Source: Niveispirillum irakense DSM 11586 | GTDB taxonomy: Bacteria; Pseudomonadota; Alphaproteobacteria; Azospirillales; Azospirillaceae | Direction: 5' to 3' | NCBI RefSeq assembly: GCF_000429645.1 | Contig: NZ_AUCG01000021.1 | Location: 310,001 to 374,000, forward strand | Length of the DNA: 64,000 nt | Shown: one piece after another, positions 10,454-64,000 of the stretch | Layout of the letters: each line of letters begins with the position of its first letter | Position numbering within the stretch: the stretch's first letter is position 1 | Notes under the pieces: generated by a model | The model's input: only the letters and a program-made list of their open reading frames with translations | The model's database searches: none | Told to the model about the DNA's origin: nothing | Made by a program: the position numbers and the translations under genes

Positions 10454-10685
10454 TTTTAAACATCCCCGATCCTTGACGTAAGGCCACACCCGTTTCTGAT
10501 AATGATGCGCTGCGCGGAAAAAGACAGTCCGACTTGGGGCCGATGCCGGGAACAGCCGCCGCCCTATGACGTTGGCTATAGAAATCCCGGCAATATGACG
10601 GGATGCGCGAATTGGCTTAATTTCCCATCGCCGACTGTCTAGTATGGTCATTCGTTCCCACCACAAGCGGGTAGCCGCTCCGCCC

Positions 10686-11378
10686 ATGTCTGCACTGAAA
10701 ACCGTAATCGTTCCGATCAACAAGGCCGGTTGGCCGTTCATCGCCCTGTTCGCCATCGTCTCGGTCCTGCTGTTCACCTGGTCAACGGTGTTGGGCTGGG
10801 TTGGTCTGGTGCTGACCGCGTGGTGTGTCTATTTCTTCCGCGATCCTGATCGCGTCACCCCGACCCGTCCCGGTCTGGTGGTCAGCCCTGCCGATGGCCG
10901 GGTGATCATGATCACCAAGGCTTCGCCGCCGCCGGAACTGGGGATGGGCGATGTCAAGCTGACCCGCGTCTCCATTTTCCTCAATGTGTTCGATGTCCAC
11001 GTTAATCGCGTGCCGACCGATGGCGTTGTTCACAGCGCGGAATATCATCCCGGTAAGTTCCTCAACGCCTCGCTGGACAAGGCGAGCGATGATAATGAGC
11101 GCATGTCCATCCGCATGACCCTGCCCGATGGGCGGGACATGGTGTTTGTGCAGATCGCCGGTCTGGTTGCGCGTCGTATCGTGTGGTGGGTGGCGCCCGG
11201 CCAGCCCCTGCGTGCCGGTGAGCGCTATGGCCTGATCCGCTTCGGCAGTCGCTGCGATGTCTATCTGCCGGATGGTGTGGCGCCGCTGGTGGCGGTCGGT
11301 CAGAAGATGATCGCCGGTGAAAGCATCCTGGCCGATCTTGTCGGCGTGGAAGCCCAGCGCGAGGGTGAGGTCCGCTGA
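10686..11378 (+). CDS. psd: Phosphatidylserine decarboxylase
   Basis: Makes phosphatidylethanolamine from phosphatidylserine at the inner membrane. It has two hydrophobic segments near the N-terminus, the conserved FFRDPDR and VSPADGRV stretches, and the FDVHVNRVP motif. The self-cleavage site is the Gly-Ser pair in [13 protein letters not shown], where cleavage makes the pyruvoyl group. The short form (about 230 residues) is typical of alphaproteobacteria. I chose the ATG giving MSALKTV; an in-frame ATG at 10644 would add 14 residues. The stop overlaps the start of pssA. Confidence 0.94.
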
Positions 11379-12256
11379 TGCCCGGTGTGCCGCGCCCTGC
11401 CATCCGGGTCCGTTCCCGGCGGTTGCGGCCGCCCCGCCTCCGGGGTCTGTCCATCAATCATCTGCTGCCCAATATGCTGACGATGCTCAATCTGGCATCC
11501 GGCATGACGGGTATCCGATTCGCGATGGAAGGGCAGTGGAAGCAGGCGGTGCTTGCTATCGCTGTTGCGGCTGTCTTCGACCTTCTGGATGGCCGTATCG
11601 CCCGGATGCTGAACGCGCAGAGCAAGTTTGGCGAGGAACTGGACAGCCTGTCCGATGTCGTCAGCTTCGGCGTGGCCCCGGCCATGATCCTCTATCTCTG
11701 GACCCTTTCCGATGCCAATACCATTGGCTGGATGGCGGCTCTCCTGATGGGGATTTGCGCGGCATTGCGGCTGGCGCGCTTCAACACCATGCTGGGGGCG
11801 GCGGCAGAGAAGCCGCCCTTCGCCTATAATTATTTTACCGGTGTTCCGGCGCCGGCGGGGGCTTTCCTGGCGTTGCTGCCATTGATCGCCACGCTGGAGG
11901 TCGGCCCCGGTTGGGTGGATAGCCCTTGGCTGGTCATCCCTTGGACAGTGGGGACGGCCGTGTTGATGATCAGCGCGGTTCCCACCTTCTCTGCCAAAGG
12001 GCTGCATGTACCCCAGCGCTATGTGGTGTTCGTGCTGCTGGGTGTGGGTCTCGCGGCTGCCGCCCTGGTCAGTTCCCCATGGGCCACCTTGGCATTTGTC
12101 GGTCTTGGCTATATCGCCACCATTCCGTTCTCTGCCCGTCGCTATCGCGCCCTGGCGGAAGAAGCGGCCCGCCTGATGGGCGAGGATACGGTGCAGGGCG
12201 CCAGCCCGGCGCCCGATGGTGGGGCACCCAAACCTTCCGACATCAAGGCGGATTGA
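11378..12256 (+). CDS. pssA: CDP-diacylglycerol-serine O-phosphatidyltransferase
   Basis: Makes phosphatidylserine, the substrate of the upstream psd product, so the two genes form a complete phosphatidylethanolamine operon. The CDP-alcohol phosphotransferase motif reads DGRIARML followed by FGEELDSLSD, retaining the conserved Asp and Gly residues. Several transmembrane helices follow. The start codon overlaps the psd stop (TGATG). An intrinsic terminator follows closely. Confidence 0.95.
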   Translation: MPGVPRPAIRVRSRRLRPPRLRGLSINHLLPNMLTMLNLASGMTGIRFAMEGQWKQAVLAIAVAAVFDLLDGRIARMLNAQSKFGEELDSLSDVVSFGVAPAMILYLWTLSDANTIGWMAALLMGICAALRLARFNTMLGAAAEKPPFAYNYFTGVPAPAGAFLALLPLIATLEVGPGWVDSPWLVIPWTVGTAVLMISAVPTFSAKGLHVPQRYVVFVLLGVGLAAAALVSSPWATLAFVGLGYIATIPFSARRYRALAEEAARLMGEDTVQGASPAPDGGAPKPSDIKAD

Positions 12257-48018: not shown

Positions 48019-49451
48019 TCGATCGTCGTTCTTTTATCGCCTCGGGCATCGCCGCCAGCACCGTCCTGGCTGCCGGCCCTGTCCTTGCCCGCACCGAGGG
48101 TGGCTTCAAGAGCAATCGCCCCGCTGTTGGGGACCGCCTGTTTACCAGTAAGGCGGTGGAGCAGGAGATCAAGCGCGTCTCGTCCAAGATCGCTGATCCC
48201 AAGCTGCGCTGGATGTTCACCAACTGCTATCCCAATACGCTGGATACGACGGTGAAGATGGGCACGGTGGATGGCAAGCCGGACAGCTTCGTCATCACCG
48301 GCGATATTCCCTGCCTGTGGCTGCGCGATTCCGCCGCCCAGGTGAAGCCATACCTGCATCTGGCGCGCCAGGATAAGGAGTTGCAGCGTCTGTTCCAGGG
48401 GCTGATCAACCGGCAGGCCCGGTCCATCCTGATCGACCCGTATGCCAATGCCTTCATGGAAGACCCGTCGGCGCCGACGAACCTGAAATGGGCGCTGGAA
48501 GACCAGACTGACATGAAGCCCGGCGTGGCGGAGCGGAAATGGGAGATCGACAGTCTCTGCTATTTCCTGCGCCTCTCCTACAGCTATTGGAAGGAAATGG
48601 GGGACAAGACCCCCTATGACGCGGCCTGGGTGGAAGCCGCCAAGGCCGTGATCCGTACCTTCCGCGAACAACAGCGCAAGGATGGGCCGGGGCCCTACCG
48701 CTTCCTGCGGGCCAGCAATCGCCCGACCGAAACCATGATGCTGTATGGTTATGGTGCGCCGTCGCGGCCGGTGGGGATGATCCATTGCGGTTTCCGTCCC
48801 TCGGATGATGCCTGCGTCTACCCCTTCTTCGTTCCGGCCAATTTCTTCGCGGTCACCACGCTGCGCGAACTGGCGGTGCTGGCCAATGATGTGGTTGGCG
48901 ATGCCAATCTGGCCAATGAGGCCAAGGCATTGGCGGATGAGGTGGAGAAGGCCCTGCACCAGTACGGCAAGACCCGTCTGCTGGATGGCAGCGAGGTCTG
49001 GGCCTTTGAGGTGGATGGCTACGGCAATGCCCTGTTCATGGACGATGCCAACACGCCGTCGCTTTCGTCGATGGCCTATCTGGGCAGTGTCGATTTCGCT
49101 GATCCGCTGTGGCAGCGCACCCGCGATGCCTGCTGGAGCGAGAACAATCCCTATTTCTCCCGCGGCAAGGCGGTCGAAGGGATCGGCGGCCCGCATGTGG
49201 GGTTGGGCCAAGTCTGGCCCATGTCGCTGACCATGCGGGCACTGTCCAGCAATGATGACGCTACCATCCGTACCTGCCTCAAGATGCTGCGCGACAGCGA
49301 TGCCGGCACCGGCTTCATGCATGAGGCGGTGGATCATGATGATCCGACCAAATTCACCCGCGACTGGTTCGCCTGGGCCAATGGGCTGTTCGGCGAGATG
49401 ATCCTGCATCTGGCCGACACAAAGCCGCATCTGCTGAAAGAGGTGCTGTGA
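48015..49451 (+). CDS. GH125 exo-alpha-1,6-mannosidase with Tat signal
   Basis: A 478-residue metal-independent alpha-mannosidase. The N-terminus [11 protein letters not shown] carries a twin-arginine signal cleaved near ALA-RTEGG. Family stretches are [49 protein letters not shown] and the C-terminal [19 protein letters not shown]. It overlaps GH3 by four bases and GH92 by one. It should trim alpha-1,6-linked mannose from the N-glycan core. Confidence 0.93.
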
Positions 49452-51787
49452 TGGCTATCAGCCGCCGCCAACTCCTGATTTCGACCGCCCTTGGCGGGGC
49501 CGCTATGGGCTTGGGCTTGCCGCGGCTCGCCTGGGCTGCCACGTCCGCCGCCGCGCCCAACCTGTTCATCGGTACTGGCGGGGATGGGCACACCTATCCC
49601 GGTCCGACCTTGCCGTTCGGCATGGTGCAGTTGGGTCCGGATACGGATGTGGAGCGCTGGGACACCTGCTCCGGTTATCATCGCGACGACACGTCCATCC
49701 TGGGCTTCTCCCACACCCATCTGTCGGGCACCGGCATTGGCGACATGCTGGATGTGCTGGTGGTGCCGACGGCGGGTGACAAGGTGCAGCTCACCCCCGG
49801 CACCATGGCCGATCCGGATTCAGGATACCGCCAGCGCTTCAAGGATGAGGTGGCGGAACCGGGTTATTATGCCGTATCGCTGGAAAGCGGCGTGCGTGCC
49901 GAACTGACAGTGACGGCCCGCACCGGCTATCACCGTTACCAGTTCCCGCAAGGGCCGGGCCATCTGCTGATTGACCTGTCGCATCTGGTGCTGGACAAGA
50001 CTGACCAGCCGCCGCTGATCCAGGATGCCGGCATGGAACTGGCCGCCGATGGCACGCTGACGGGTCACCGCACGGTGAACCGTTGGGCCAAAAGGCGGCG
50101 CATTTACTTCGCCATGCAGTTCTCCCGCGCGCCGGATCGGGTCGGCTTTTATGCCGATGAGGATGCGGCCCAGCCCGCCGGTTCCACCAAGGTGGAAGGC
50201 CGTCGGCTGAAGGCGCTGGTCCAGTTCGGGCAAGCCGGTGGGGAGCCGATCCTGATCCGTTGCGGCATTTCGGGTGTGGACCGCGATGGCGCGCTGGCCA
50301 ACCTGAAGGCCGAAGCGACACACTGGGATTTTGATGCCGTGCGCCGGGCGGCGGCATCTGTTTGGGCCGACACGCTGGGCACCATCCAGGTTGAAGGCGG
50401 CAGCGAAGACCAGCGCACCATCATGACCACCGCGCTGTATCATGCGCAACTGGCACCCACCCTGTTCTCCGACGTGGATGGGCGCTATCTGGGCATGGAT
50501 GGCAAGGTGCATCATGTGCCGGCGGGTGGTGCCGCCCACAGCACCTGGTCGCTGTGGGATACCTACCGTGCCGTGCATCCGCTGTTCACCCTGGTGGCCC
50601 CGGACAAAACCAAGCAACTGATCGATGATCTGATCCGCCAGACGGCGCAATCGCCGTTCGGCCCGCTGGTCTGGCAGTTGCAGGCCAAGGAAACCGGCAC
50701 CATGATCGGCTGGCATGGCGTGGTGCCACTGGCTGAGGCGCACGCCAAGGGGATCGAGGCGGATTATGCCGCTGCCTGGCCCGCCATCCGCCGCCGCAGC
50801 TTCGACTTCACGGCGCCGGACAAGGATAACAGCCTGGGGCGCGACCTTTATGACCGCATGGGCTTTGTGCCGGCGGACAAGGTGTTTGAAAGCGTCAGCC
50901 GCACCCAGGAATATGCCTATGATGATTGGGCCAGTTCCCGCCTTGCCCGCGCCATCGGGGAGACGGCGGACGCCCAGCGCCTGACGCGCCGATCCGCCAA
51001 CTGGATCAACACCATTGATCCATCCATCGGTTTCGCGCGCCCGCGCTTTGCCGATGGTTCCTGGTGGGAACCCTATGATCCCATCCAGTTGGGCCATATG
51101 CCCAAACCCTGGTGGCGGGATTATACGGAGGCCAATGGCTGGCAGGCGACCTTCCTGCACCAGCATGATATATATAACTTCATCGCCCATCTGGGCGGCG
51201 ACGCGAAGTTTGAGGCCAAGCTGGACGCTTTGTTCAATGCGCCGTCGACCCTGCCCGACAATGCGCCGCCGGATATTGCCGGGCTGGTTGGGCAATATGC
51301 CCATGGCAATGAGCCGGACCAGCACGCGCCCTATCTCTATGCCTATGTCGGTGCACCCTGGAAGACCCAGGCGATGGTGCGGCGGCTGTGCGTGGAGATG
51401 TATCACAACGCGCCCAAGGGCATTATCGGCAACGATGATTGCGGCCAGATGAGCGCATGGTTCGTCTTCTCCGCCCTTGGCTTCTATCCGGTTGATCCGG
51501 TGGAGGCCGTCTATGTCTTCGGCTCGCCCTTGTTCGAGCGGGCAGCGGTAAAGGTCGGGAATGGTCGTACGCTGGTGGTGGAAGCCCCCGGCAACAGCGC
51601 CGACACGCCTTATGTCCGTGCGGTGGAATGGAACGGCCAGCCCTGGAGCAAGAGCTGGATCGCGCATAAGGATCTGGTTCAGGGCGGTACGCTGCGCTTC
51701 ACCATGTCCAAGGAACCGAACCCCAATTTTGGCGCCAAGATCGCCGACCGGCCGCCTTCGGGTGGCCGTGGCGCCGGCCAGAGCTAA
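49451..51787 (+). CDS. GH92 exo-alpha-mannosidase
   Basis: A 778-residue calcium-dependent alpha-mannosidase. The N-terminus has SRRQLLIST, a Tat-like signal. Family signatures are NLFIGTGGDGHTYPG, GFSHTHLSGTGIGD, HSTWSLWDTYRAVHPL and IIGNDDCGQMSAWFVFSALGFYPVDP. I chose the ATG that overlaps the GH125 stop (TGATG). GH92 enzymes remove alpha-1,2, -1,3 or -1,6 mannose; with GH125 it would cover both arms of the N-glycan. Confidence 0.95.
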   Translation: MAISRRQLLISTALGGAAMGLGLPRLAWAATSAAAPNLFIGTGGDGHTYPGPTLPFGMVQLGPDTDVERWDTCSGYHRDDTSILGFSHTHLSGTGIGDMLDVLVVPTAGDKVQLTPGTMADPDSGYRQRFKDEVAEPGYYAVSLESGVRAELTVTARTGYHRYQFPQGPGHLLIDLSHLVLDKTDQPPLIQDAGMELAADGTLTGHRTVNRWAKRRRIYFAMQFSRAPDRVGFYADEDAAQPAGSTKVEGRRLKALVQFGQAGGEPILIRCGISGVDRDGALANLKAEATHWDFDAVRRAAASVWADTLGTIQVEGGSEDQRTIMTTALYHAQLAPTLFSDVDGRYLGMDGKVHHVPAGGAAHSTWSLWDTYRAVHPLFTLVAPDKTKQLIDDLIRQTAQSPFGPLVWQLQAKETGTMIGWHGVVPLAEAHAKGIEADYAAAWPAIRRRSFDFTAPDKDNSLGRDLYDRMGFVPADKVFESVSRTQEYAYDDWASSRLARAIGETADAQRLTRRSANWINTIDPSIGFARPRFADGSWWEPYDPIQLGHMPKPWWRDYTEANGWQATFLHQHDIYNFIAHLGGDAKFEAKLDALFNAPSTLPDNAPPDIAGLVGQYAHGNEPDQHAPYLYAYVGAPWKTQAMVRRLCVEMYHNAPKGIIGNDDCGQMSAWFVFSALGFYPVDPVEAVYVFGSPLFERAAVKVGNGRTLVVEAPGNSADTPYVRAVEWNGQPWSKSWIAHKDLVQGGTLRFTMSKEPNPNFGAKIADRPPSGGRGAGQS

Positions 51788-51803
51788 AGAAGGAAGCCCC
51801 GAG

Positions 51804-53726
51804 ATGACCGCCTTTTCCCGGCGTACCCTGCTTGCCACCAGCCTGGCCGCTGGCACGCTTCCGGCCCTGTCGGCTGTTGCGGCCCCGCGCATGAACGCGC
51901 CCAAACCCTATGGCGCCACGCCCAGCCCGCGCCAATGGCGCTGGCATGGCATCGGCAGCTATGCCTTCATCCATTTCTCCATCAATACCTTCACCGACAA
52001 GGAATGGGGCTATGGGGATGAAGATCCCAGCCTGTTCAACCCCACCGATTTCGATGCCGACCAGATCGTCGGCGCGGCGAAGGCGGGTGGATTGCGCGGC
52101 ATCCTGCTGACGGCAAAGCACCATGACGGCTTCTGCCTCTGGCCGACCAAACTGACGGAACATTGTATCCGCAACAGCCCCTACAAGAACGGGCAGGGCG
52201 ATATCGTCCGCGAATTTGCCGATGCGTGTAAGCGGGCTGGCATGCTGTTCGGGCTCTATCTGTCGCCCTGGGACCGCAACCATGCTGAATATGGCCGCCC
52301 GGCTTATGTCGACTATTTCCGCGCCACGCTGACCGAGCTTTGCACCCAGTATGGTGAGCTGTTCGAGGTCTGGTTCGACGGGGCCAATGGCGGCGACGGT
52401 TATTATGGCGGTGCGCGGGAAGCCCGCAAGATCGACGCGCCGAAATATTACAACTGGCCCGACATGGTGGCCCTGGTCCATAAGCTGCAGCCCAACGCCT
52501 GCACCTTCGACCCGCTGGGCGCCGATATCCGCTGGGTGGGCAATGAGGACGGCGTGGCCGGTGACCCCTGCTGGCCGACCATGCCCAACAAGCCCTATGA
52601 CCAGGAAGAGGGTAATTCCGGCGTGCGCGGTGGCGAGCTTTGGTGGCCGACGGAAACCAACGTCTCCATCCGGCCCGGCTGGTTCTACCACGCGGATGAG
52701 GATTCCAAGGTCAAGAGCCCGGAACGGCTGGTAAAGCTGTTCGACGAAAGCATCGCCCGCGGCACCAACCTGAACCTGAACCTGCCGCCGGACCGGCGCG
52801 GCCACATCCCCGATCAGGATGTGAAGATCCTGAAATCCTTCGGTGATGCGATGCGCGCCACCTTTGCCAAGGATCTGGCGCAGGGTGCTGTCGCCTATGC
52901 CAGCCATAGCCGGGGACCGGGGTTTGAGCCGTCGCTGGTGCTGGATGGCGACCGCGAGACCTACTGGTCCACACCGGACGACGTGACCAAGCCGGCTTTG
53001 ACGCTGGAACTGAAGCCCGGCACGACCTTCGACCTGATCCGCATTGCCGAATATCTGCCGTTGGGCGTGCGCGTCACCCGCTTTGCACTGGATGCGGAGA
53101 TTGATGGCCAGTGGCAGGTGCTGGCGGAGCATGAATGTATCTCCCAGCAGCGTGTCGTTCGGCTGAAGGCACCGATCACGCCGACCAAGGTGCGGCTGCG
53201 CATCGTGGACGCGCCGGTGTGCCCGGCGATCACCGAATTCGCTCTGTTCCGCGCCGTTGCCCCGGTGTCGGTGCCGGCCATCGTTTCCACCGATCCGACC
53301 GTGCTGGATGTGACAAAGTGGAAGGTGGTGGAGGCAACGGCGCCGAAGGCGGAAAAGCTGTTGGATAATGATGCCCAGACCATCTGGATCATGGAAGCGC
53401 CGCAGCCGGGCGCGCCGGCCAGCGTGACGGTCGATCTGGGGGCGGATACCAATCTGGCCGGCTTCAGCCTGACACCCTCGCGTCAGGTGATGACCGGTGC
53501 GGCCCCGCCGAAGGGCTATGTCGCGGAAACCAGCCTGGACGGCAAGTCCTGGCAGGCCGGTGCGGCGGGCGAGTTCTCCAACATCGCTTATGCCCTGGCA
53601 ACCCAGCGCATCCCGTTCGACGCCCCGCGCAAGACCCGCTTCCTGCGGCTGCGCTTCGCGGAAACGGCGGTAGCGATGCCGCGCATGGCTATCGCCGGGA
53701 TCGGCGGCTTCACGCCACGGTCGTAA
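51804..53726 (+). CDS. GH29 alpha-L-fucosidase with discoidin-like modules
   Basis: A 640-residue exported enzyme. The N-terminus AFSRRTLLATS is Tat-like. The GH29 barrel includes TAKHHDGFCLWPT and the nucleophile Asp192 in VWFDGANG. Two beta-sandwich modules follow (from about residues 365 and 510), resembling F5/8-type C carbohydrate-binding domains. The gene is open further upstream, but AGGAAG eight bases before this ATG and the signal peptide fix the start. It would remove the core alpha-1,3- or antennal fucose of plant N-glycans. It ends at a terminator. Confidence 0.93.
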   Translation: MTAFSRRTLLATSLAAGTLPALSAVAAPRMNAPKPYGATPSPRQWRWHGIGSYAFIHFSINTFTDKEWGYGDEDPSLFNPTDFDADQIVGAAKAGGLRGILLTAKHHDGFCLWPTKLTEHCIRNSPYKNGQGDIVREFADACKRAGMLFGLYLSPWDRNHAEYGRPAYVDYFRATLTELCTQYGELFEVWFDGANGGDGYYGGAREARKIDAPKYYNWPDMVALVHKLQPNACTFDPLGADIRWVGNEDGVAGDPCWPTMPNKPYDQEEGNSGVRGGELWWPTETNVSIRPGWFYHADEDSKVKSPERLVKLFDESIARGTNLNLNLPPDRRGHIPDQDVKILKSFGDAMRATFAKDLAQGAVAYASHSRGPGFEPSLVLDGDRETYWSTPDDVTKPALTLELKPGTTFDLIRIAEYLPLGVRVTRFALDAEIDGQWQVLAEHECISQQRVVRLKAPITPTKVRLRIVDAPVCPAITEFALFRAVAPVSVPAIVSTDPTVLDVTKWKVVEATAPKAEKLLDNDAQTIWIMEAPQPGAPASVTVDLGADTNLAGFSLTPSRQVMTGAAPPKGYVAETSLDGKSWQAGAAGEFSNIAYALATQRIPFDAPRKTRFLRLRFAETAVAMPRMAIAGIGGFTPRS

Positions 53727-53742
53727 AGTCCGGATGATGCTG

Positions 53743-53778
53743 AAGGCGCGGGGGGAGACTTCCGCGCCTTTTTCTTTT
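53743..53778 (+). terminator. Intrinsic terminator after the GH29 gene
   Basis: AAGGCGCGG (53743-53751) pairs with CCGCGCCTT (53762-53770), followed by a T-rich tail (TTTTTCTTTT). It ends the main glycosidase operon just before the last, unclassified enzyme, leaving that gene dependent on read-through or its own promoter. Confidence 0.85.
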
Positions 53779-53801
53779 GTTGTTCCAGAAGATAAATTGC
53801 C

Positions 53802-56192
53802 ATGCGCCTGCTGCTTCTGTTCGCCCTGCTCTGGCTGTTGCCCCTAACGTCGGCACAAGCCCAAAGCCTGGATCTGACCCACGCTACCCTGGTCACCGCC
53901 CCGGCCAGCGGGCCGGAAAAAGCGGCGGTCGCGCTGCTGGTGGAGGAGGTGGCCAAGCGCACAGGCATTGCCTGGAAACAGGGGGAACCGGGCGCCGGGC
54001 CGCTGGTGGTGGTGGGGCAGGGCGCGCAGATGGGCACCCTGCTGCCGGCGTCATTGCGTGATGACTGGACGGCCCCGGCGGCGTGGGGGCGGGAAGGGTA
54101 TGCCGTGCGCACCTTCACCCACCAGGGCCGCCCGGTAATCGCCATCGCCGGGCATGATGCGCGCGGCGTGCTGTATGGTATCGGCCATCTGCTGCGCGCG
54201 CTGGCGATGGAGCCCGGTCGGGCAGTGCTGGCGGCGCCCTTGAATGTCACCGCCACGCCGGAAAAGACGGTGCGCAGCCATCAGATCGGCTATCGTTTCA
54301 AGAACAATACCTATGACGCCTGGACTCTGGCGCAGTTTGAACAGGAAATCCGCGATCTGGCGGTGTTCGGCACCAATGCCATCCAGGTGATTGCGCCTGT
54401 TTCCGATGATGAGAAGGAAAGCCCGCTTTTCCCCGCCCCGGCGGATGAAACCATCATCGGCATTGCCGGCATCCTGGCGAAATATGGTCTGGATTTTGAT
54501 CTCTATTACCCGGTCATCCGTGCTGATTATAGTGACCCGGCGCAGGTGGCGGCGGAACTGAAGGATTTTGAAGCGCTGATCCAGCGCTTTCCCGCCATCC
54601 AGCGTCTCTATGTCCCCGGCGGCGATCCCGGCCATACACCGCCGGACCTTCTTTTTCCCCTGCTGGAGAAGATGGCGGCGATCCTGCGCCAGTATCACTC
54701 AGAGGCTGAGTTTTGGGTTTCCACCCAGGGCTTCGACCAAGCCGGTTATGAAGGTTTTTACCGCCAGTTGGACCGTAATCCCCCCTGGCTGACAGGCATT
54801 TTCATCGGCCCGCAATCGCGGGACCCGATGGCGGAGCAGCGGGCGCGCATCCCCGCCCGCTACCCGATCCAGGCCTATCCCGATATCGGCCATACGCTGC
54901 ACGCCCAGTTCCCGGTGGCGGATTGGGACCCGGCTTTTGCGCTGTTGCAAGGGCGGGAGCCGATCAGCCCGCGCCCGGTGGATATGGGCGTGATCTATCG
55001 CCATTTTCAGCCGCTTTTCACCGGCTTTGTCACCTATTCCGAAGGGGTGACGGATGATGTGAACAAGATGCTGTGGTCGCAATGGGGCTGGTCGACGGCC
55101 ACCGGTGCGGATTCCATCCTGCGCGACTATGCTCGCTACTTCCTCGGGCCCCGCATTGGTCAGGACCATATGGACCGTGCCGCCGCCCTGATCCTGGACC
55201 TGGAGCGCAACTGGCGGGGGCCGATCCGGGACAATGCCGGCATCAATGCCACGCTTCAGGGCTTTCAGGCACTGGATAAGGGGGGGGCGCCCGGCAACTG
55301 GCGTTGGGAAAGCCTGCTCTATCGCGCGACATATGACGCCTATGCCCGTCGTCGCGCCGTGGCAGAGGCGGAACGGGAAGCGACTTCCCTGGATATCTTG
55401 AGAAAAGCCGCCACTATCGGCACCCAGCCCGCGTTGAAGGCTGCGCGTGCCGCCCTGGCTGCACCGGATGATCGCGAAACCCTGGCCTTGCGGGATCGCT
55501 TGTTCGCCCTGGCGCAGCGCCTGTTCGATCATGTTGGCCTGCAACTCAGTGTTTCCCGTTTCGGCGCTTCGCATTGGGAGCGGGGGGCCAATCTGGATCG
55601 GGTGGATACATCCTTGAACAACCGGGTCTGGCTGGAACGGTGGTTTAATGCCATCGAAGCGAAACCGGATGAGCCGGCGCGGCGGACGATGCTGGATGAG
55701 ATTTTACACTGGGAGCAGCCGGTTGCCGGCACGCGCTATGATGATTTGGGTGACCCCGCCCGATCACCGCATCTGGTTCGCGGCGTGGGAGCCGAGGGCG
55801 ACCCGCAATTCTTCGCAACGGCGGTGCATTCCATTGCCGATGTGACGCCGGATAGTGGCTGGCGCCTGTCCTGGGTCACCTATGGGGAGACCCTGTATGA
55901 CAGTCCGCTGACCCTGTCCTATCAGGATCTGGATCCGACCATCCCTTATCGTCTGCGCGTGACCTATGGCGGGGAGGATTATCATCTGCCGATCCGGCTG
56001 GTCGCGAATGGCGTAACCGAGATCCACACTCCCCTGTCCCGCCCAGGCAATCCCTCCACGCTGGAATTCGACATTCCGGCTTCTGCCACGCGGGACGGCC
56101 GTCTGACCCTGCAATGGACCCGGCCCCCTGGCATGGGGGGCAGTGGCCGGGGTAAGCAGGTGGCGGAGGTCTGGCTGATCCCCCTTCGCTGA
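53802..56192 (+). CDS. Secreted unclassified glycoside-hydrolase-like protein (GH20b/GH67N-type N-terminus)
   Basis: A 796-residue protein with a Sec signal peptide (first 21 residues, ending AQA). Residues about 25-145 look like the alpha/beta domain that precedes the barrel in GH20, GH67 and GH84 enzymes, with AGHDARGVLYGIGHLLRAL. A TIM-barrel-like region (about 155-470) includes QRLYVPGGDPGHTPP, EFWVSTQGFD and FVTYSEGVTDDVNKMLW; the Glu there is a candidate catalytic residue. A helical part and a C-terminal beta domain follow. I cannot place it in a known family. Its position at the end of the N-glycan locus suggests that it handles a linkage the other enzymes do not. Its stop directly abuts that of the opposite gene. 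Confidence 0.72.
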   Translation: MRLLLLFALLWLLPLTSAQAQSLDLTHATLVTAPASGPEKAAVALLVEEVAKRTGIAWKQGEPGAGPLVVVGQGAQMGTLLPASLRDDWTAPAAWGREGYAVRTFTHQGRPVIAIAGHDARGVLYGIGHLLRALAMEPGRAVLAAPLNVTATPEKTVRSHQIGYRFKNNTYDAWTLAQFEQEIRDLAVFGTNAIQVIAPVSDDEKESPLFPAPADETIIGIAGILAKYGLDFDLYYPVIRADYSDPAQVAAELKDFEALIQRFPAIQRLYVPGGDPGHTPPDLLFPLLEKMAAILRQYHSEAEFWVSTQGFDQAGYEGFYRQLDRNPPWLTGIFIGPQSRDPMAEQRARIPARYPIQAYPDIGHTLHAQFPVADWDPAFALLQGREPISPRPVDMGVIYRHFQPLFTGFVTYSEGVTDDVNKMLWSQWGWSTATGADSILRDYARYFLGPRIGQDHMDRAAALILDLERNWRGPIRDNAGINATLQGFQALDKGGAPGNWRWESLLYRATYDAYARRRAVAEAEREATSLDILRKAATIGTQPALKAARAALAAPDDRETLALRDRLFALAQRLFDHVGLQLSVSRFGASHWERGANLDRVDTSLNNRVWLERWFNAIEAKPDEPARRTMLDEILHWEQPVAGTRYDDLGDPARSPHLVRGVGAEGDPQFFATAVHSIADVTPDSGWRLSWVTYGETLYDSPLTLSYQDLDPTIPYRLRVTYGGEDYHLPIRLVANGVTEIHTPLSRPGNPSTLEFDIPASATRDGRLTLQWTRPPGMGGSGRGKQVAEVWLIPLR

Positions 56193-57893
56193 CTATAGCC
56201 GCAAACCCAGCCGGACCGGCGGGTCGTATGGGTTGAACTGGTAATGCAGGCCCAGTGTCACATGGGCCTGGAACCGGTCGGGGCCGGTATCACCGTCAGT
56301 GATCATCTCGATCCGGCCTGAATGGAGCGGCCGTGCCGCCCGCATGTCGGGTGAGGCATTGTCTGGATGGGCGATATATTGTTGCAGCCAGCGGTTCAGT
56401 TCATTCTCCACCCGCTCGATTGTCCAGGACTTGCCAATTAATTCTCGCAGAATATGTTTGATCAGATGGCCGAACCGTCCGGCACACAGGATGTGCGGGA
56501 CGGTAGAGGCACTGCCGGCCAGACTGGGGGCGGACAGGAAGGCCAGATGCGGGTCCAGATGGCAATCCACCAGCACGGCAAGCCCCATTGCTGAAAGGGC
56601 TTGGGCCTGTTCTGGTGTCACCACCAGTTCCAAAGGTGGACGCGGTGTGCCAAGCCCGCCTTCATGATGCAATGACACGGGTGGTGGCAGTCGCCCGCCG
56701 GGCCCCAGCCCGGTCATGGCGGCGCACCAGCCATAGCGGCGGAAAGCGGTGATGGCGCGTGCAGCCAGGGGGAAGGCCGCCGACATCCAAAGCCAATCTT
56801 CCAGTACGGCACAGGTTTCCGCGTAAAAGCAGGAGGCAGGCTCGGCACCAGGCAGGCCATAAGGCGCGCGTAAAACCACGCGCGGCAGGGCCAGGGCCAG
56901 ATTTTGCGCGTGAGGTTGCATGCGGAGCCTGGCCCAGGCCTCAAAGTGCTCCCCCGTCGGGCTGGCGGGGAGACCGCCTTGATCACCGATCTCCGCAAAA
57001 TTATCGCAGCCCAGCAGGGAGGGGGCGGCGGAAGCGGCGAAAAGGGTGAAAGTCTGGGATGCGACCCGCCCGATCTGGTCAAGCAGCAGCATATCCGCAT
57101 CACCAGGGCCGAACGGGTGATCGCAGATCAGTAATCCATAGCTGTCGCCGCCGGACTGGCCCAACCCGGTCTCGTACAACGCTTTATAAAGATAGCTCTG
57201 GCGCAGGTGTCTTTCCCGCTCATTGGCAGAGATGGCATCAGCATGCGTGGGCCCCTGATAGGGCCCGCAGAGATCGACCTGCAAATCATCCACATGGCAA
57301 TCCATGCAATGGATGCGCACGCTGCCATCCCGCCCCGCAGCCTGGAGCAGATAGGCCAGACTGCGCCATGCCGCTTCCAGTTTCTGGAACGCGGGATGGT
57401 GCAGGATCGCTTCCAGCCAATATCCCAACTCCTGATCCAGCCTGCCAATTTCAAAATCCATTTCTGTCGTGCTGGCGGTGAGCGCTGTTCCTTCACGCAA
57501 GTGACAAAGTGCGGCCCGCCTTTCTGCCAGTGGTCGCAGCGGCTCCACTGTTGCGGCGATGCGCTGGGGGTGGAAATCCGCCAGCCGTTCCGGCGCAAAG
57601 ATCAGCGATTGCGCTTTTTCCAGATGCGGGGGCTGGAGCGTCAGCGTCAGCCGGGGGGCAATATGCGCCATCCAGCCATCAAGGTCGCGATATGCCGCCA
57701 GATCGTCAAAGCACAGTTGCTGCGCACCGCCATCGGCCGGTCGGGCAGAGAAATTGGCAATCACCCCGATCACCAAGGGCATGTTGGCCCGTGTCGCCGG
57801 CAATTCCGGGACACCGTGGGTGGAAAGACGTACCCGGTCGCCGATAAAGGCTTCTCCCGGCAAGGTGGATTGGGTGAAGGGGTAAGCGGTCAT
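56193..57893 (-). CDS. TssB-TssC fusion-like sheath paralogue
   Basis: A 566-residue protein. Residues about 35-150 resemble TssB: a PLVIGVIANFSARP start, the ...LTLQPPHLEKA strand region, then ADFHPQRIAATVEPLRPLAERRAAL. Residues about 165-566 resemble TssC: DFEIGRLDQELGYWLEAILHHPAFQKLEAAWRSL early and ILRELIGKSWTIERVENELNRWLQQYI late. Both halves differ strongly from the TssB and TssC encoded nearby. It is divergent from the T6SS genes across an AT-rich region. I infer a minor or terminal sheath component; a degenerate duplicate is the alternative. Confidence 0.75.
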   Translation of the reverse strand: MTAYPFTQSTLPGEAFIGDRVRLSTHGVPELPATRANMPLVIGVIANFSARPADGGAQQLCFDDLAAYRDLDGWMAHIAPRLTLTLQPPHLEKAQSLIFAPERLADFHPQRIAATVEPLRPLAERRAALCHLREGTALTASTTEMDFEIGRLDQELGYWLEAILHHPAFQKLEAAWRSLAYLLQAAGRDGSVRIHCMDCHVDDLQVDLCGPYQGPTHADAISANERERHLRQSYLYKALYETGLGQSGGDSYGLLICDHPFGPGDADMLLLDQIGRVASQTFTLFAASAAPSLLGCDNFAEIGDQGGLPASPTGEHFEAWARLRMQPHAQNLALALPRVVLRAPYGLPGAEPASCFYAETCAVLEDWLWMSAAFPLAARAITAFRRYGWCAAMTGLGPGGRLPPPVSLHHEGGLGTPRPPLELVVTPEQAQALSAMGLAVLVDCHLDPHLAFLSAPSLAGSASTVPHILCAGRFGHLIKHILRELIGKSWTIERVENELNRWLQQYIAHPDNASPDMRAARPLHSGRIEMITDGDTGPDRFQAHVTLGLHYQFNPYDPPVRLGLRL

Positions 57894-58080
57894 CTCGTCC
57901 CCATTTTTAGTGCCGCATTATTATTGTTTATATGGATTTTTTAAATCAAAAAGATCGTTTAATAGAGTATTCGAAAATGAATACTAGTATAAATTTTATT
58001 AAAGTTGAATTAATACCCTTGTTCATGACCATTGGTTTGCTATGTTTTCGAGGTAAGTCGAATGGTTGTGGGAGAGTGGA
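57894..58080. promoter_or_regulatory. AT-rich divergent control region of the T6SS locus
   Basis: This 187-base region is much richer in A and T than the flanking genes. It contains the inverted repeat AGTATTC-N6-GAATACT at 57966-57985 and several TTTAAT-like stretches. It should hold the promoters for both the fusion gene and the OmpA-tssBC genes. Silencing by a MucR- or H-NS-like protein is a reasonable guess. Confidence 0.6.
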
Positions 58081-58746
58081 ATGTTTCCCATGCTTTGCAG
58101 GGCGTTGCCCCGCATGCTGCTGGGCGCCCCGATGGGGCTGCTGATGCTCTCGCTGCCGGTAATGGCTGGAGCCCAAACGCGGGCAGATGGCGAGGCCATT
58201 CCCATGCTGAATGGGACTGAAAGTGCGGAGGAAATCCTCCGTCTGGCCAGCAAGCCCAAGGCCCAACTCCCCCCGGGGCTGGCAGATGTGAATCTGGGGC
58301 AGGCCCATTCCATGGCGCCGGTCGGCAATGTCGGCAAGCCTCCTGTCCCGTCCGGTGTTACACCGGTTGTGGCGGAAAAAGCAGAATGCAGCGCTACCGC
58401 CTTTTCCACCATTCTTGTCTTCGCGACGAAGATCACGGCGTTGAATGACGATCAGCGGCGGTTCGCCCAGGATCTGGCGAAGGCGATGCAGTCGCCCGGA
58501 TGGCGGAATTGCCGCTGGGTACTGGAAGGCCATGCGGATTCACGCGGGCCCGCCGAGGCCAACATGATCCTGTCGGAACGTCGCGCCGCTGGCGTTGTGG
58601 AGGTGCTGGCGGCTGCCGGCGTACCCAAAGAGCATATGGTGGTGAAAGCCATGGGGGAAACCCGGCAGGCTTTCCCGGATGATCCGACGCGCGCGGAAAA
58701 TCGCCGTGTCGTTTTCCGTCCGCAATCCCCGGACACGTCTTCCTGA
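58081..58746 (+). CDS. OmpA-domain periplasmic/outer-membrane protein of the T6SS locus
   Basis: A protein of about 221 residues with a signal peptide (cleavage near MAGAQ, residue about 31), a Pro-rich linker, and a C-terminal OmpA-like peptidoglycan-binding domain: VLEGHADSRGPAEANMILSERRA and RAENRRVVF. GGAGAG precedes the ATG. It is 59 bases before tssB and probably anchors part of the secretion apparatus to the cell wall, as TagL or the TssL extension do. The exact T6SS role is inferred. Confidence 0.8.
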   Translation: MFPMLCRALPRMLLGAPMGLLMLSLPVMAGAQTRADGEAIPMLNGTESAEEILRLASKPKAQLPPGLADVNLGQAHSMAPVGNVGKPPVPSGVTPVVAEKAECSATAFSTILVFATKITALNDDQRRFAQDLAKAMQSPGWRNCRWVLEGHADSRGPAEANMILSERRAAGVVEVLAAAGVPKEHMVVKAMGETRQAFPDDPTRAENRRVVFRPQSPDTSS

Positions 58747-58805: not shown

Positions 58806-59291
58806 ATGTCCGATGTTTCCGTCGCACCGCGCGAGCGTATCAACATCAAATATACGACTGAAACCAACGGTCAGAAGGCGGAGCAGGAACTGCCGCTGCT
58901 GCTGGTGCCCGTGGGTTGCTTTACCCCCCGTCAGGAAGGGGAAGTGCGGGATATCCCCGAGATGGTCGAGATCAACCCCGACACGTTCGACGCGGTGATG
59001 GAGAGCCAGAATATTGAGCTGTCCCTTTCCGTGCCCGACGCGCTGCGTGGGGACGGTAGCAACCACGATGTCACCCTCAATATCCAGAAGCTGGAAGATT
59101 TTACGCCCGACCGACTGGTCGCGCAGTTGAGCCCGCAGATCGAACCGCTGCGCAAACTGCTGGAATTGCGGGCGGCGCTGGGTGCTTTGCGCGGCCCGCT
59201 GGCGAACAAGGAGAGCTTCCGCAAGGTCATCCAGGGCATCGTGAATGATCCCGACCTGTGCGACCGCATCCTTTCTGAAATGGATATGTGA
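58806..59291 (+). CDS. tssB: Type VI secretion sheath subunit TssB (VipA)
   Basis: Small subunit of the contractile sheath; 161 residues, as usual. Family stretches are APRERINIKYTTE near the N-terminus, ELPLLLVPVGCFTP, VPDALRG and LSPQIEPLRKLLELRAALGALRGPLAN. It pairs with the TssC encoded 26 bases downstream. Confidence 0.96.
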   Translation: MSDVSVAPRERINIKYTTETNGQKAEQELPLLLVPVGCFTPRQEGEVRDIPEMVEINPDTFDAVMESQNIELSLSVPDALRGDGSNHDVTLNIQKLEDFTPDRLVAQLSPQIEPLRKLLELRAALGALRGPLANKESFRKVIQGIVNDPDLCDRILSEMDM

Positions 59292-59317: not shown

Positions 59318-60784
59318 ATGTACACAATCGATCAGGTTCTGAAGAATTCCAACCAGTCGACCGATGATCTCCAGGATCGCGACCGGAAGAACATCACCCT
59401 TCTGATCAAAACAGTCCTGGAGGACAAGGAAGCAAAGAAGCTGGCGGATGCGCGGGTTGACGTGAATGTCGTCGACCGCCTGATCGGGGAGATCGACAAC
59501 CTGATCGGGGCGCAGATCGACGCGGTGCTGCACCAACCGCAGTTCCAGGAGATTGAGGCGGCCTGGCGTGGCCTCCGCTTCCTGCTGGATCGCACGGATT
59601 TCCGCGCTGCTGGGCGGGTTTTCATCCGGTTCCTGGATGTATCCAAGGATGATCTGATTGCCGATTTTGAGCGTGGCGGCGTTGGTGCGGATGCCGATGT
59701 CACTAAATCGGATTTCTACTATCGGATTTATCGCCAGGGCATTGGTCAGCGCGGTGCCGATCCTGTGGCGGCGATCCTGGGCAATTTCACGTTTGGCAGT
59801 GGTGCGCGTGATTTGAACCTTCTGCGCAACATCGCCAAAGTATCGGCCATGGCGCATGCCCCGTTCATCGCCGCCCCCAGCCCCGATTTGTTGAGCGTCA
59901 AGAGCTTCGACGAATTGCCGGCCCAACGCGATATCCGCGCCATTTTTGATGATGATGTGAAATATGCGGAATGGAACAGTTTCCGCGATAGCGAAGATGC
60001 GCGTTATGTCGGCCTGGCGTTGCCGCGCTTCCTGTTGCGCCGCCCCTATTCCCCGGACCAAATCCCTACCAAATCCTTCCGCTATCGGGAAAATGCCGGA
60101 CCCGACAAAACCCCCTATCTCTGGGGCAATGCTTCTTTCGCGTTTGGTACCCGCCTGACAGACAGTTTCACCCGCTGGGGCTGGTGCCCCAATATCATTG
60201 GCCCCAATAGCGGCGGTGAAGTGGATAAGCTGATCCTGCATCGGTACGAGAAAGGTGGTCGGAAAGAGGTGATGGTCCCGACCGAAATCCTGATCCCCGA
60301 CCGGTTGGACCTGGAATTGTCGGAGGCGGGTTTCATTTCGCTTGTCATGCGCAAAGGGTCGGACAATGCCGCCTTTGTGGCCGCCAATTCCCCGCAGCGG
60401 AACAAGGTTTTCGGCGACACATCCGAAGGGCGGCAGGCGACATTGAACCATAAGCTGGGCGCCCAGCTTCCCTATATGTTCATCGTCAACCGCATTGCCC
60501 ATTACATCAAGGTTCTGCAGCGGGAAAAGCTGGGCGGCTGGGCGGACCGGGTGTCGCTGGAGAAGGAGCTTAACGAGTGGCTCCGCCAGTACATTGCCAA
60601 CATGCCCAACCCGTCGCCTGAAATCCGCAGCCGGAAACCGCTGCGGGATGCGAAGATCACCGTGTCCGAGGTGGAGGATGAACCCGGCTGGTACACGGTT
60701 GGTATGTGGATTACCCCCCATTTCAAATATATGGGGGCGGATTTCACCATTTCCCTGACCGGACGCTTGGAAAAGACCAAATAG
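59318..60784 (+). CDS. tssC: Type VI secretion sheath subunit TssC (VipB)
   Basis: Large sheath subunit of 488 residues. Diagnostic stretches are QIDAVLHQPQFQEIEAAWRGLRFL near residue 65, VSAMAHAPFIAAPSPDLL, RLPYSPDQIPTK-like RRPYSPDQIPTKSFRY, and the C-terminal EWLRQYIANMPNPSPEIRSRKPL. TssB and TssC assemble the sheath that contracts to drive the Hcp tube outwards; ClpV encoded next takes it apart. Confidence 0.97.
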   Translation: MYTIDQVLKNSNQSTDDLQDRDRKNITLLIKTVLEDKEAKKLADARVDVNVVDRLIGEIDNLIGAQIDAVLHQPQFQEIEAAWRGLRFLLDRTDFRAAGRVFIRFLDVSKDDLIADFERGGVGADADVTKSDFYYRIYRQGIGQRGADPVAAILGNFTFGSGARDLNLLRNIAKVSAMAHAPFIAAPSPDLLSVKSFDELPAQRDIRAIFDDDVKYAEWNSFRDSEDARYVGLALPRFLLRRPYSPDQIPTKSFRYRENAGPDKTPYLWGNASFAFGTRLTDSFTRWGWCPNIIGPNSGGEVDKLILHRYEKGGRKEVMVPTEILIPDRLDLELSEAGFISLVMRKGSDNAAFVAANSPQRNKVFGDTSEGRQATLNHKLGAQLPYMFIVNRIAHYIKVLQREKLGGWADRVSLEKELNEWLRQYIANMPNPSPEIRSRKPLRDAKITVSEVEDEPGWYTVGMWITPHFKYMGADFTISLTGRLEKTK

Positions 60785-60842: not shown

Positions 60843-63521
60843 ATGCCAACCCAACCGGAGGAGCAGAACGGCGATGCGCTCATCCGTCGATTGAGCCCGC
60901 ATGTCCGCTCCGCTTTGGAAACAGCGATAAGCCTCTGTGTCTCCCGCACCCATTACCGGGTGGAGCCGGAGCATATATTGCTGGCCCTGCTGGAAACGAC
61001 GCAGGGCGATTTCCATACCCTGATCGACCATCTGGGGCTGGACAGGGCGGAAATGCGGCTGGCCTTGCGCCAGGCGGTGGAGGGGCTGCCGACCGGCAAC
61101 CATGGTCGCCCGCCCGTCTTTCCCGGTCGCCTTTATGATTGGCTGCGCCGGGCCGCCCGCGTGTCGGAGATGGTGCTGGGCACGGATATGATCCGGTCCG
61201 GCGCGCTGGTGGCGGGAAGCCTGCTGGACCCGGACCTGATCGGCCCCGGCCCGCACCGCGCCCTGTTCACCCGTTGTGAAGCCGGTGACCTGCTGGTGGA
61301 ATTGCGGGCGGTGCTGGCCACATCGCCGGAACCACCGGCCTTGCCGGCGCAGGAAGAGGGGGCGAGCACGCAGACGCCGCCGTCCGTCGCAGCCGGAGAG
61401 GCACCGGGGCAAGGCGAGGCGGCCCTGGGCCCGTTGCTGGCGAAATACTGCACTGACCTGACAGCCAGGGCGCGGGCTGGCGCTATTGACCCGGTTTTTG
61501 GCCGTGACGCGGAAATCGGCCAGATGATCAATATCCTGGCCCGGCGGCGGCAGAACAACCCGTTATGTGTGGGTGAGCCGGGCGTGGGTAAAACCGCGCT
61601 GGCGGAAGGGCTGGCCCTGCGCATGGCGCGCGGCGATGTGCCCGACTTTCTGAAAGGTCAGGCTTTGTTGAGCCTGGACCTGGGCCAGTTGCAGGCTGGA
61701 GCTGGCATGCGGGGAGAGTTTGAGCGCCGGCTTTACGGTTTGCTGGCGGAGGTCAAGCAATCCCCTGTTCCGATCATCCTGTTCATTGACGAAGCCCATA
61801 TGCTGATCGGGGCCGGCAATGTGCCGGGCGGCGGCGATGCGGCCAATCTGATCAAGCCCGCCCTGGCGCGGGGGGAATTGCGCACCATCGCTGCCACCAC
61901 CTGGGGCGAATATAAGAAATATTTCGAGAAGGATGCCGCCCTGGCCCGGCGGTTTGAACTGGTGCGCCTGGAAGAGCCGTCGCCAGAACAGGCCATCCAG
62001 ATTCTGCGCGGCTTGAAGCCGGTTTTTGAGGCGGCGCACCATGTCCATATCCGCCAGGATGCGCTGGAGGCGGCAGCCCACCTTTCCGCGCGCTACATTG
62101 CCGGTCGCCAGTTGCCCGACAAGGCCATTGGCGTGCTGGATACGGCATGTGCCCGCGTGAAACAGGGGTTGAGTGGTCGCCCGGCGCTGCTGGTGGCCGC
62201 CGAACAGAGGCTGGCCCTGCTGGACCGCACCAGGGCCGATGCGGAGGGCGATCTGCGCCTGGGCATGGCCGATGCGCCGGCGCGGCTGGCCGCCCTTGAT
62301 GGGGAACGGGCGCAGCAGGCCGACCAATGCAAACGGCTGGAAACGCAATGGCAGGCGGAACGGGAGGTGGTGGATGCCATCATCCAGTTGCGTCGCGACA
62401 TGCTGGCCGGCGAAGGGCCGGTCGCGGCTGAGAGTGCGGCGCGGATGGCGGACCTGCTGCGGTCCCTGGCCGAGTTGCAGGGTGACGCCCCCCTGCTGGA
62501 CCATGAAGTGTCGGCCCATTCCATCGGGCAGGTGATTGCCGACTGGACCGGTATCCCCATGGGCCGGCTGTTGCGGGACGATCTGCGCAAGCTTTTGACC
62601 CTGTCAACCGATCTGGGCCGCCGGATCGTCGGTCAGGACCATGCGCTTCAGGTGATCGAGGAAGGGTTGCGCACGGCCAAGGCCGGACTGGCCGACCCGA
62701 CCATGCCGCTGGGCGTCTTCCTGCTGGTGGGACCGAGCGGGGTGGGCAAGACGGAAACCGCGATTGCCATTGCCGATCACCTGTTTGGCGGTGAGCGTTT
62801 CATGGTCACCATCAACATGTCGGAATTCCAGGAACGGCACACGATCTCCCGCCTGATCGGTCCCCCGCCCGGCTATGTCGGCTATGGCGAAGGCGGCGTG
62901 CTGACGGAGGCGGTGCGCCAGCGCCCCTATTCCGTCGTGCTGCTGGACGAGGTGGAGAAGGCGGACCTGAATGTCCTGAACCTGTTCTATCAGGTGTTCG
63001 ACAAGGGGCGGCTGAATGATGGGGAAGGTCGCAGCATCGACTTCCGCAACACGATCCTGTTCCTCACCTCCAACCTCGCCACCGACCTGATCCAGCAGGT
63101 GGCGGATGAGGGCACGCGCCCCAGCCCGGAGGAGCTCACCGAGCTGATCCGCCCTGCGCTCCGCGCCCATTTCAAGCCCGCCCTGCTGGGGCGCATGCGG
63201 GTGGTGCCCTTCTATCCGCTGCGCCCGCAGGACATGGCCCGCATCGTCCGGCTGAAACTGGACAAGGTGGCGGCCCGGCTGGCGGCACGGCATGGCTTGT
63301 CCATGACGGTCAGCGATCGTGCTGTCGATGCCGTTGTGGCGCGCTGTCTGGATGGCCAGTCCGGTGCCCGTAATGCCGACTCCATTCTACAATCCACAAT
63401 CATCTCCCCCCTGTCCCGCCGCTTGCTGGAAATGATGGGGCGGGGGGAGGAACCCGGTCCTCTGCTGATCGACCATGATCGGGAGGATGGCTTTTGCTTC
63501 ACCTTCTCCGCCGCGTCCTGA
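60843..63521 (+). CDS. tssH: Type VI secretion AAA+ ATPase TssH (ClpV)
   Basis: Unfoldase that recycles contracted sheath. It has 892 residues: an N-terminal Clp domain (about 1-160) for TssC binding, a first AAA+ module with Walker A GEPGVGKT at 244-251, a short middle domain, and a second AAA+ module with Walker A GPSGVGKT at 630-637. Length and the short coiled middle domain fit ClpV rather than ClpB. The reading frame of Hcp is open back into its 3' end. Confidence 0.96.
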
Positions 63522-63604
63522 CCTGGCTGCGCCAGGCTTTCACAGGCCGCCGGGCGGAGCCACCCCTCATCCATCCACCATTTGAATTGACTGGAGAAAC
63601 AGAC

Positions 63605-64000
63605 ATGGCCGTTCCCGCCTATATGACGATCCGTGGTGTCAAGCAGGGTGCTATCGCCTCTGGCGCGATGACACCGCAAAGTGTGGGTCGGATGTCGAAA
63701 TCCGATCATCCCGATGAAATCCAGGTTCAGGCTTTCAGTCACAAGTTGTTTGTTCCGGTCGATATCCAGAATGGGCAGCCGACAGGGCTGCGCCAGCATC
63801 CGGGTTTCACCATCACCAAGATTTTCGACCGCACCTCGCCCCTGATCTGTCAGGCGTTGGCGACCAGCGAGAGCATTGAGGAAATCAGCATCAAATGGTT
63901 CCGCACCGGTGAGGATGGCAAGCTGGTGAATTACTTCACCCATACGTTCCATGATGCGCTGGTGGTCGGTTATCACGCCTATATGCTGAACTGCCTGGAT
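63605..64000 (+). CDS. hcp: Type VI secretion tube protein Hcp (TssD), 3' partial
   Basis: Forms the hexameric rings of the secreted inner tube. The visible 132 residues include AVPAYMTIRGVKQGAI, a shared region HPDEIQVQAFSH, GLRQHPGFTITKIFDRTSP and WFRTGEDGKLVNYFTHTFHDALV, all typical of Hcp. GGAG lies eight bases before the ATG. The gene runs off the right edge of the window. It is co-oriented with tssBC-clpV. Confidence 0.92.
   Translation, partial: MAVPAYMTIRGVKQGAIASGAMTPQSVGRMSKSDHPDEIQVQAFSHKLFVPVDIQNGQPTGLRQHPGFTITKIFDRTSPLICQALATSESIEEISIKWFRTGEDGKLVNYFTHTFHDALVVGYHAYMLNCLD

Follow-up and report, generated by a model that had tools for sequence, protein, structure and literature searches.

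The contractile particles Afp and PVC carry several sheath paralogues per particle, each a single chain and some confined to the ends. In the T6SS, TssE is the usual sheath initiator and tssB-tssC-hcp-tssE-F-G is a common gene order. T6SS sheath protomers are linked by two arms (PMC5807055). In V. cholerae, the addition of at least two residues to the N-terminal arm blocks contraction (PMC5797969). ClpV is recruited by the N-terminal helix of TssC (PMC5048182). Agrobacterium possesses a second TssC, TssC40, which is not redundant: Hcp secretion needs TssC40, while the accumulation of TssB–TssC41 does not (PMC3702570).

The window analysed here, a stretch of 64,000 nucleotides from Niveispirillum irakense DSM 11586, contains at positions 56193–57893 of the minus strand an intact open reading frame of 566 codons, with an ATG start and a GGGGA-type ribosome site upstream. 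Its 566-residue product is identified by reading frame, Pfam, AlphaFold2 and homologues as a fused TssB–TssC accessory sheath protein. The parts are all on the same strand. A TssB-type N-terminal arm (residues ~20–37, RVRL...MP; 57783–57836), recognised by alignment and by the comparison of arm lengths, equals that of the partner TssB in length. The TssB/VipA domain (residues 35–134; 57492–57791) matches Pfam T6SS_VipA, PF05591, with an E-value of 1.7e-7 and 31.6 bits against a curated cut-off of 24. The TssB interface helix (residues 119–135; 57489–57539) runs straight into TssC, of which the VipB tail-sheath domain (residues 149–458; 56520–57449; PF05943, E 2.3e-62) and the gpW/gp25-like C-terminal domain, VipB_2 (residues 463–558; 56220–56507; PF18945, E 4.2e-19), are both present. 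The first ~45 residues of TssC, corresponding to the ClpV-binding helix, are missing: the match to TIGR03355 begins at position 46 of 473, and in place of the N-terminal ClpV helix expected of a TssC the TssB helix passes directly into the body.

The protein scores 236.8 bits against the NCBIfam TssC model (equivalog cut-off 271.5) and 27.2 bits against the TssB model (cut-off 97.25), the latter match reaching position 128 of 160. Since both scores fall below the equivalog cut-offs, it is best described as a divergent homologue and not as an equivalog. It has the VipB and VipB_2 domains and the sheath fold of a TssC, as well as the VipA domain of a TssB and a fold match to that protein. The E-values, together with four further homologues of the same architecture, exclude a chance origin.

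AlphaFold2, supplied with a 20-row alignment of the window proteins and the loci fetched by a collection scan, returned one confident protomer (mean pLDDT 82, pTM 0.86), in which the placement of the TssB part relative to the TssC part rests on pTM. Residues 1–35, which include most of the arm, are disordered in this monomer. TssB-type strands lie at residues 40–46, 82–86 and 95–99, and the TssC body starts at residue 141; the intervening helix, 119–135, is the counterpart of the one in TssB for which binding to TssC has been demonstrated (PMC3840085). Foldseek aligned T6SS TssC chains along the body (E ~1e-23 to 1e-15) and TssB 5n8n_A with the N-terminal part (probability 1.00, 1.6 Å over 62 columns), the latter a short match with an E-value of 0.097. 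The fusion is predicted from this model to fold as a sheath protomer. The original prediction, that a TssB-like and a TssC-like domain are joined in one protein lying next to, and divergent from, a normal tssB–tssC pair, is thus upheld by Pfam, AlphaFold2 and Foldseek and by the positions of the neighbouring genes, and the modelling it had called for finds a TssB fold at the N-terminus.

Upstream of the fusion, an AT-rich intergenic region (57894–58065; 30% GC), presumably the promoter region, separates it from the main sheath operon on the plus strand. The first gene of this divergent operon encodes an OmpA-family protein (58066–58746; PF00691, E 1.8e-13). It is followed by the canonical partner genes tssB (58806–59291; PF05591, E 9e-39; TIGR03358 above cut-off) and tssC (59318–60784; PF05943, E 4.5e-104; TIGR03355 above cut-off), by clpV/tssH (60843–63521; TIGR03345, 1081 bits, above cut-off), and by an hcp of class Hcp1 (63602–64000; PF05638, E 1.2e-28), which continues beyond the window (L006:4602-5126). 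On the other side, at 49448–56192, the T6SS locus borders directly on a glycoside hydrolase cluster (GH92, alpha-L-fucosidase and a GH67/GH20b-like protein), the last gene of which ends one base ahead of the fusion stop.

In its own genome the fusion stands alone. The genes hcp2, tssF, tssG, tssK, a short tssM, tssL and a TssE-like gene are more than 20 kb away, past the main sheath operon and on the strand of the fusion. The gene in the TssE position (L006:18158-18634, minus strand) is degenerate, having lost the GLPD-type motif and the Pfam match seen in its relatives. TssM of this fusion-bearing T6SS subtype appears to have shrunk to ~340 residues, with the IcmF-related N-terminal domain only (L006:12886-13917, minus strand; L109:11447-12460). 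No ImpA_N (TssA) gene was found in the fusion locus; the two in this genome sit in its other two T6SS. The three systems contain five TssC genes, one on contig 7, two at the present locus and a tandem ImpC/ImpD-type pair on contig 14 (L008:11584-14534, minus strand), so that both kinds of extra sheath paralogue occur in one genome.

A single-protein search of genome contigs gave no relatives; a profile scan of the collection identified the same fusion in four more loci, beside the same kind of tssB–tssC. These belong to Niveispirillum sp. SYP-B3756 (locus L107, matched to genome G071), an Azospirillum MAG (L103, matched to G074), a Rhodospirillaceae MAG (L108, matched to G055) and an Acetobacteraceae MAG (L109). 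As GC-rich genomes give long open frames, a fusion was called only where the TssB domain sits in the same stop-free frame as tssC. Candidates with one internal stop proved to be ordinary tssB–tssC gene pairs, and the best plasmid matches were rejected as having separate tssB and tssC genes. All five fusions carry the arm motif RVxL, a stretch similar to TssB, and the body of TssC minus its usual N-terminus; the VipA match of L045/L107 and that of L109 are below the Pfam cut-off, and the call in these cases is based on the alignment. Within the family of the window genome, 4 of 82 genomes carry the fusion (the window genome, G071, G074 and G055), and a profile of the four fusions gives them 634–953 bits against at most 377 bits for any other TssC. 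No further accessory fusion was found among sampled genomes of the class (385), the phylum (398) or the family of the Acetobacteraceae MAG (249). Of the features that mark the group, namely a single frame, tssB–tssC of the partner clade and an Hcp2, the fusion was present in five loci and Hcp2 in four.

A careful maximum-likelihood tree of TssC bodies unites the five fusions in one clade (98/96). The canonical TssC proteins of the fusion-bearing systems form another, together with Myxococcota TssC (100/99), and the ImpD-type second TssC proteins a third (100/100). The pairs G074 with G071 and G055 with L109 recur among both the fusions and the partner TssC proteins, as expected if the two had been inherited jointly. 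Branches are long, as the program warned, so that it is unsure exactly where within its clade the window fusion belongs. Judged by these comparisons, the accessory TssB–TssC fusions are a rare, ancient and co-inherited family. The gene had been put forward as an extra sheath paralogue, and this is borne out by its conservation across five lineages. The homologues sought beside other alphaproteobacterial T6SS loci are rare, as the case against that proposal supposed, but they are intact and co-inherited, and do not carry the disrupting mutations it also supposed.

Two other loci were noted in passing. In a deltaproteobacterial MAG T6SS, a very divergent single gene resembles VipA plus VipB (L102:9733-11310; VipB E 4e-22, VipA E 0.001); it diverges too far to be placed and is not included in the trees, and the canonical TssC of its locus falls in the partner clade. 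In G069, of the same genus as the window genome, a related locus without the fusion has shrunk to a tssG-like gene and a tssC that is truncated (L046:8190-9302, 10468-11454).

Gene order in the relatives hints at a role for the fusion. In G071, the genes for VgrG, the fusion, Hcp2, TssE, TssF and TssG are consecutive with short overlaps, and G074 has the same order; the overlap of the fusion with hcp2 is 11 bases in both. G055 shows VgrG, fusion and Hcp2 up to the end of its contig, and in L109 VgrG precedes the fusion, with which the fetched stretch ends. The partner tssB–tssC is on another contig in G074 and G055. Hcp2 is distinct from the Hcp1 encoded beside the main sheath genes, the two being seen together in three systems and assigned by class in the others: identity is 39–63% within Hcp1, 37–45% within Hcp2 and at most 32% between them. 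The arrangement VgrG–fusion–Hcp2–TssE–TssF–TssG would favour a link to the baseplate rather than a cap at the distal end or a regulator of sheath length.

We prefer, at a little less than an even chance, the reading that one T6SS subtype retains the single-chain TssB–TssC protomer as a second sheath subunit with a specialised role, forming a baseplate-proximal ring with Hcp2. Agrobacterium TssC40 is the nearest precedent in function. The first ring or rings, sitting on the VgrG/TssE–TssF–TssG baseplate, would consist of fusion protomers and Hcp2, and the canonical TssB–TssC/Hcp1 sheath would polymerise onto them. The fusion retains both linking arms, and in no case does its N-terminal arm exceed the partner TssB arm in length (fusion/partner 18/18, 18/18, 16/18, 16/17 and 16/17). 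The missing TssC helix would imply resistance to ClpV, although ClpV could use another contact on the fusion. After contraction, ClpV would then strip the main sheath and be unable to pull out the fusion ring, which would stay on the baseplate. It is rather doubtful that this amounts to a dedicated initiator ring, in which a ClpV-resistant single-chain protomer with its own Hcp2 stays on the baseplate for reuse in repeated firing; if true, such a ring would let a T6SS baseplate be reused from one firing to the next. Against the baseplate reading, the series fusion–Hcp–TssE–F–G repeats the common T6SS order and may reflect simple ancestry. Furthermore, TssE is present in the relatives, and in the window genome the fusion no longer adjoins hcp2 or tssE. 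The fusions also evolve fast, at pairwise distances roughly two- to threefold those between partner TssC proteins, which partial relaxation would produce as well.

Single-chain sheath protomers look workable in view of a second set of genes. In 14 small-genome alphaproteobacteria (0.6–1.9 Mb; L122–L128, L130–L136), TssB and TssC lie in one open frame and no separate tssB or tssC match was found, so that the fusion is the only sheath protein detected. Probably the 14 are Holosporales-type endosymbionts of protists; published accounts of that group give tssB-tssC-hcp without mention of a fusion (PMC8163844, PMC11909080). These proteins keep a near-complete TssB and most of the TssC N-terminal region. 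Being nested among canonical TssC proteins, they arose separately.

Their existence counts in favour of the preferred reading, and also lends some weight to the view that the accessory fusion and Hcp2 build an entire alternative sheath and tube on a shared baseplate, for use under other conditions, with TssB–TssC and Hcp1 as the other set. The adjacency and co-conservation of the fusion and Hcp2 and the retention of both handshake arms agree with this. We consider it unlikely nonetheless, as the route known for recycling would be closed to a sheath of subunits without the ClpV-docking helix, the window locus shows a single ClpV and a single baseplate set, and the fusion evolves faster than the partner TssC. 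Alternatively, the fusion might be mixed sparsely into the main sheath, or sit at its distal end, tuning stability, length or access by ClpV. Its arms fit the lattice, it has no ClpV helix, and mutant sheath subunits of V. cholerae are dominant when mixed (PMC5797969). The gene order in the relatives, however, ties the fusion to VgrG, Hcp2 and baseplate genes and not to TssA or ClpV, and this arrangement is likewise thought unlikely, ranking after the alternative sheath.

The fusion is probably not a relaxed duplicate decaying without function, which we regard as quite improbable. The weak TssB score, the longest branch, the degenerate TssE-like gene in the locus and the visible reduction of the related G069 locus could all be read as decay, as could the fact that no more than 51 of the 93 near-invariant positions of TssC are retained. 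The other fusions keep 40–66 of these positions, making the window copy typical. The frames are intact in five lineages, and the topology pairs mirror those of the partner TssC. Least probable of all, orthology to the rhizobial second TssC (ImpD/TssC40) with a TssB domain gained would suit the similar setting, a second TssC just upstream of tagJ-tssE-F-G, and the 33% identity to an ImpD-type TssC that is the highest for the window body, but is rejected because the second TssC forms a separate clade (100/100 against 98/96 for the fusions) and its scanned members have no VipA domain.

The preferred placement of the fusion in a ring at the baseplate bears on how sheaths begin there and on the reason for a second, non-redundant TssC in some systems: a one-chain paralogue that has no known recycling handle and is accompanied by an Hcp of its own gives clean access to both questions. 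The only-sheath fusions of reduced genomes suggest in turn that a sheath need not be built from two chains, mirroring the single-chain sheath of phages. A natural TssB–TssC fusion was not found in the literature searched, which lacked most subscription papers and preprints; the accessory fusion is a real, conserved and apparently new form of the sheath subunit.

A number of parallels can be drawn with known sheath proteins. The accessory fusion resembles the TssB/TssC (VipA/VipB) protomer in its domains and predicted fold. It differs in being one chain instead of two, in being encoded by an additional and not the main sheath gene, and in lacking the last stretch of TssB and the first ~45 residues of TssC. 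The only-sheath fusions likewise unite the two subunits in a single open frame, but they keep the TssC N-terminus, occur without separate tssB and tssC and have an independent origin. Like the second TssC of the imp systems of Agrobacterium and Rhizobium (TssC40/ImpD), the accessory fusion is a second, divergent sheath paralogue near baseplate genes; the imp protein, by contrast, has no TssB domain and belongs to a separate clade. With Afp and PVC it shares the use of several sheath paralogues and of a single chain. Its predicted fold is nevertheless far nearer to T6SS TssC (E 1e-16 to 1e-23) than to the AFP/PVC sheath chains, against which Foldseek matches were weak (E 4e-4 or weaker).
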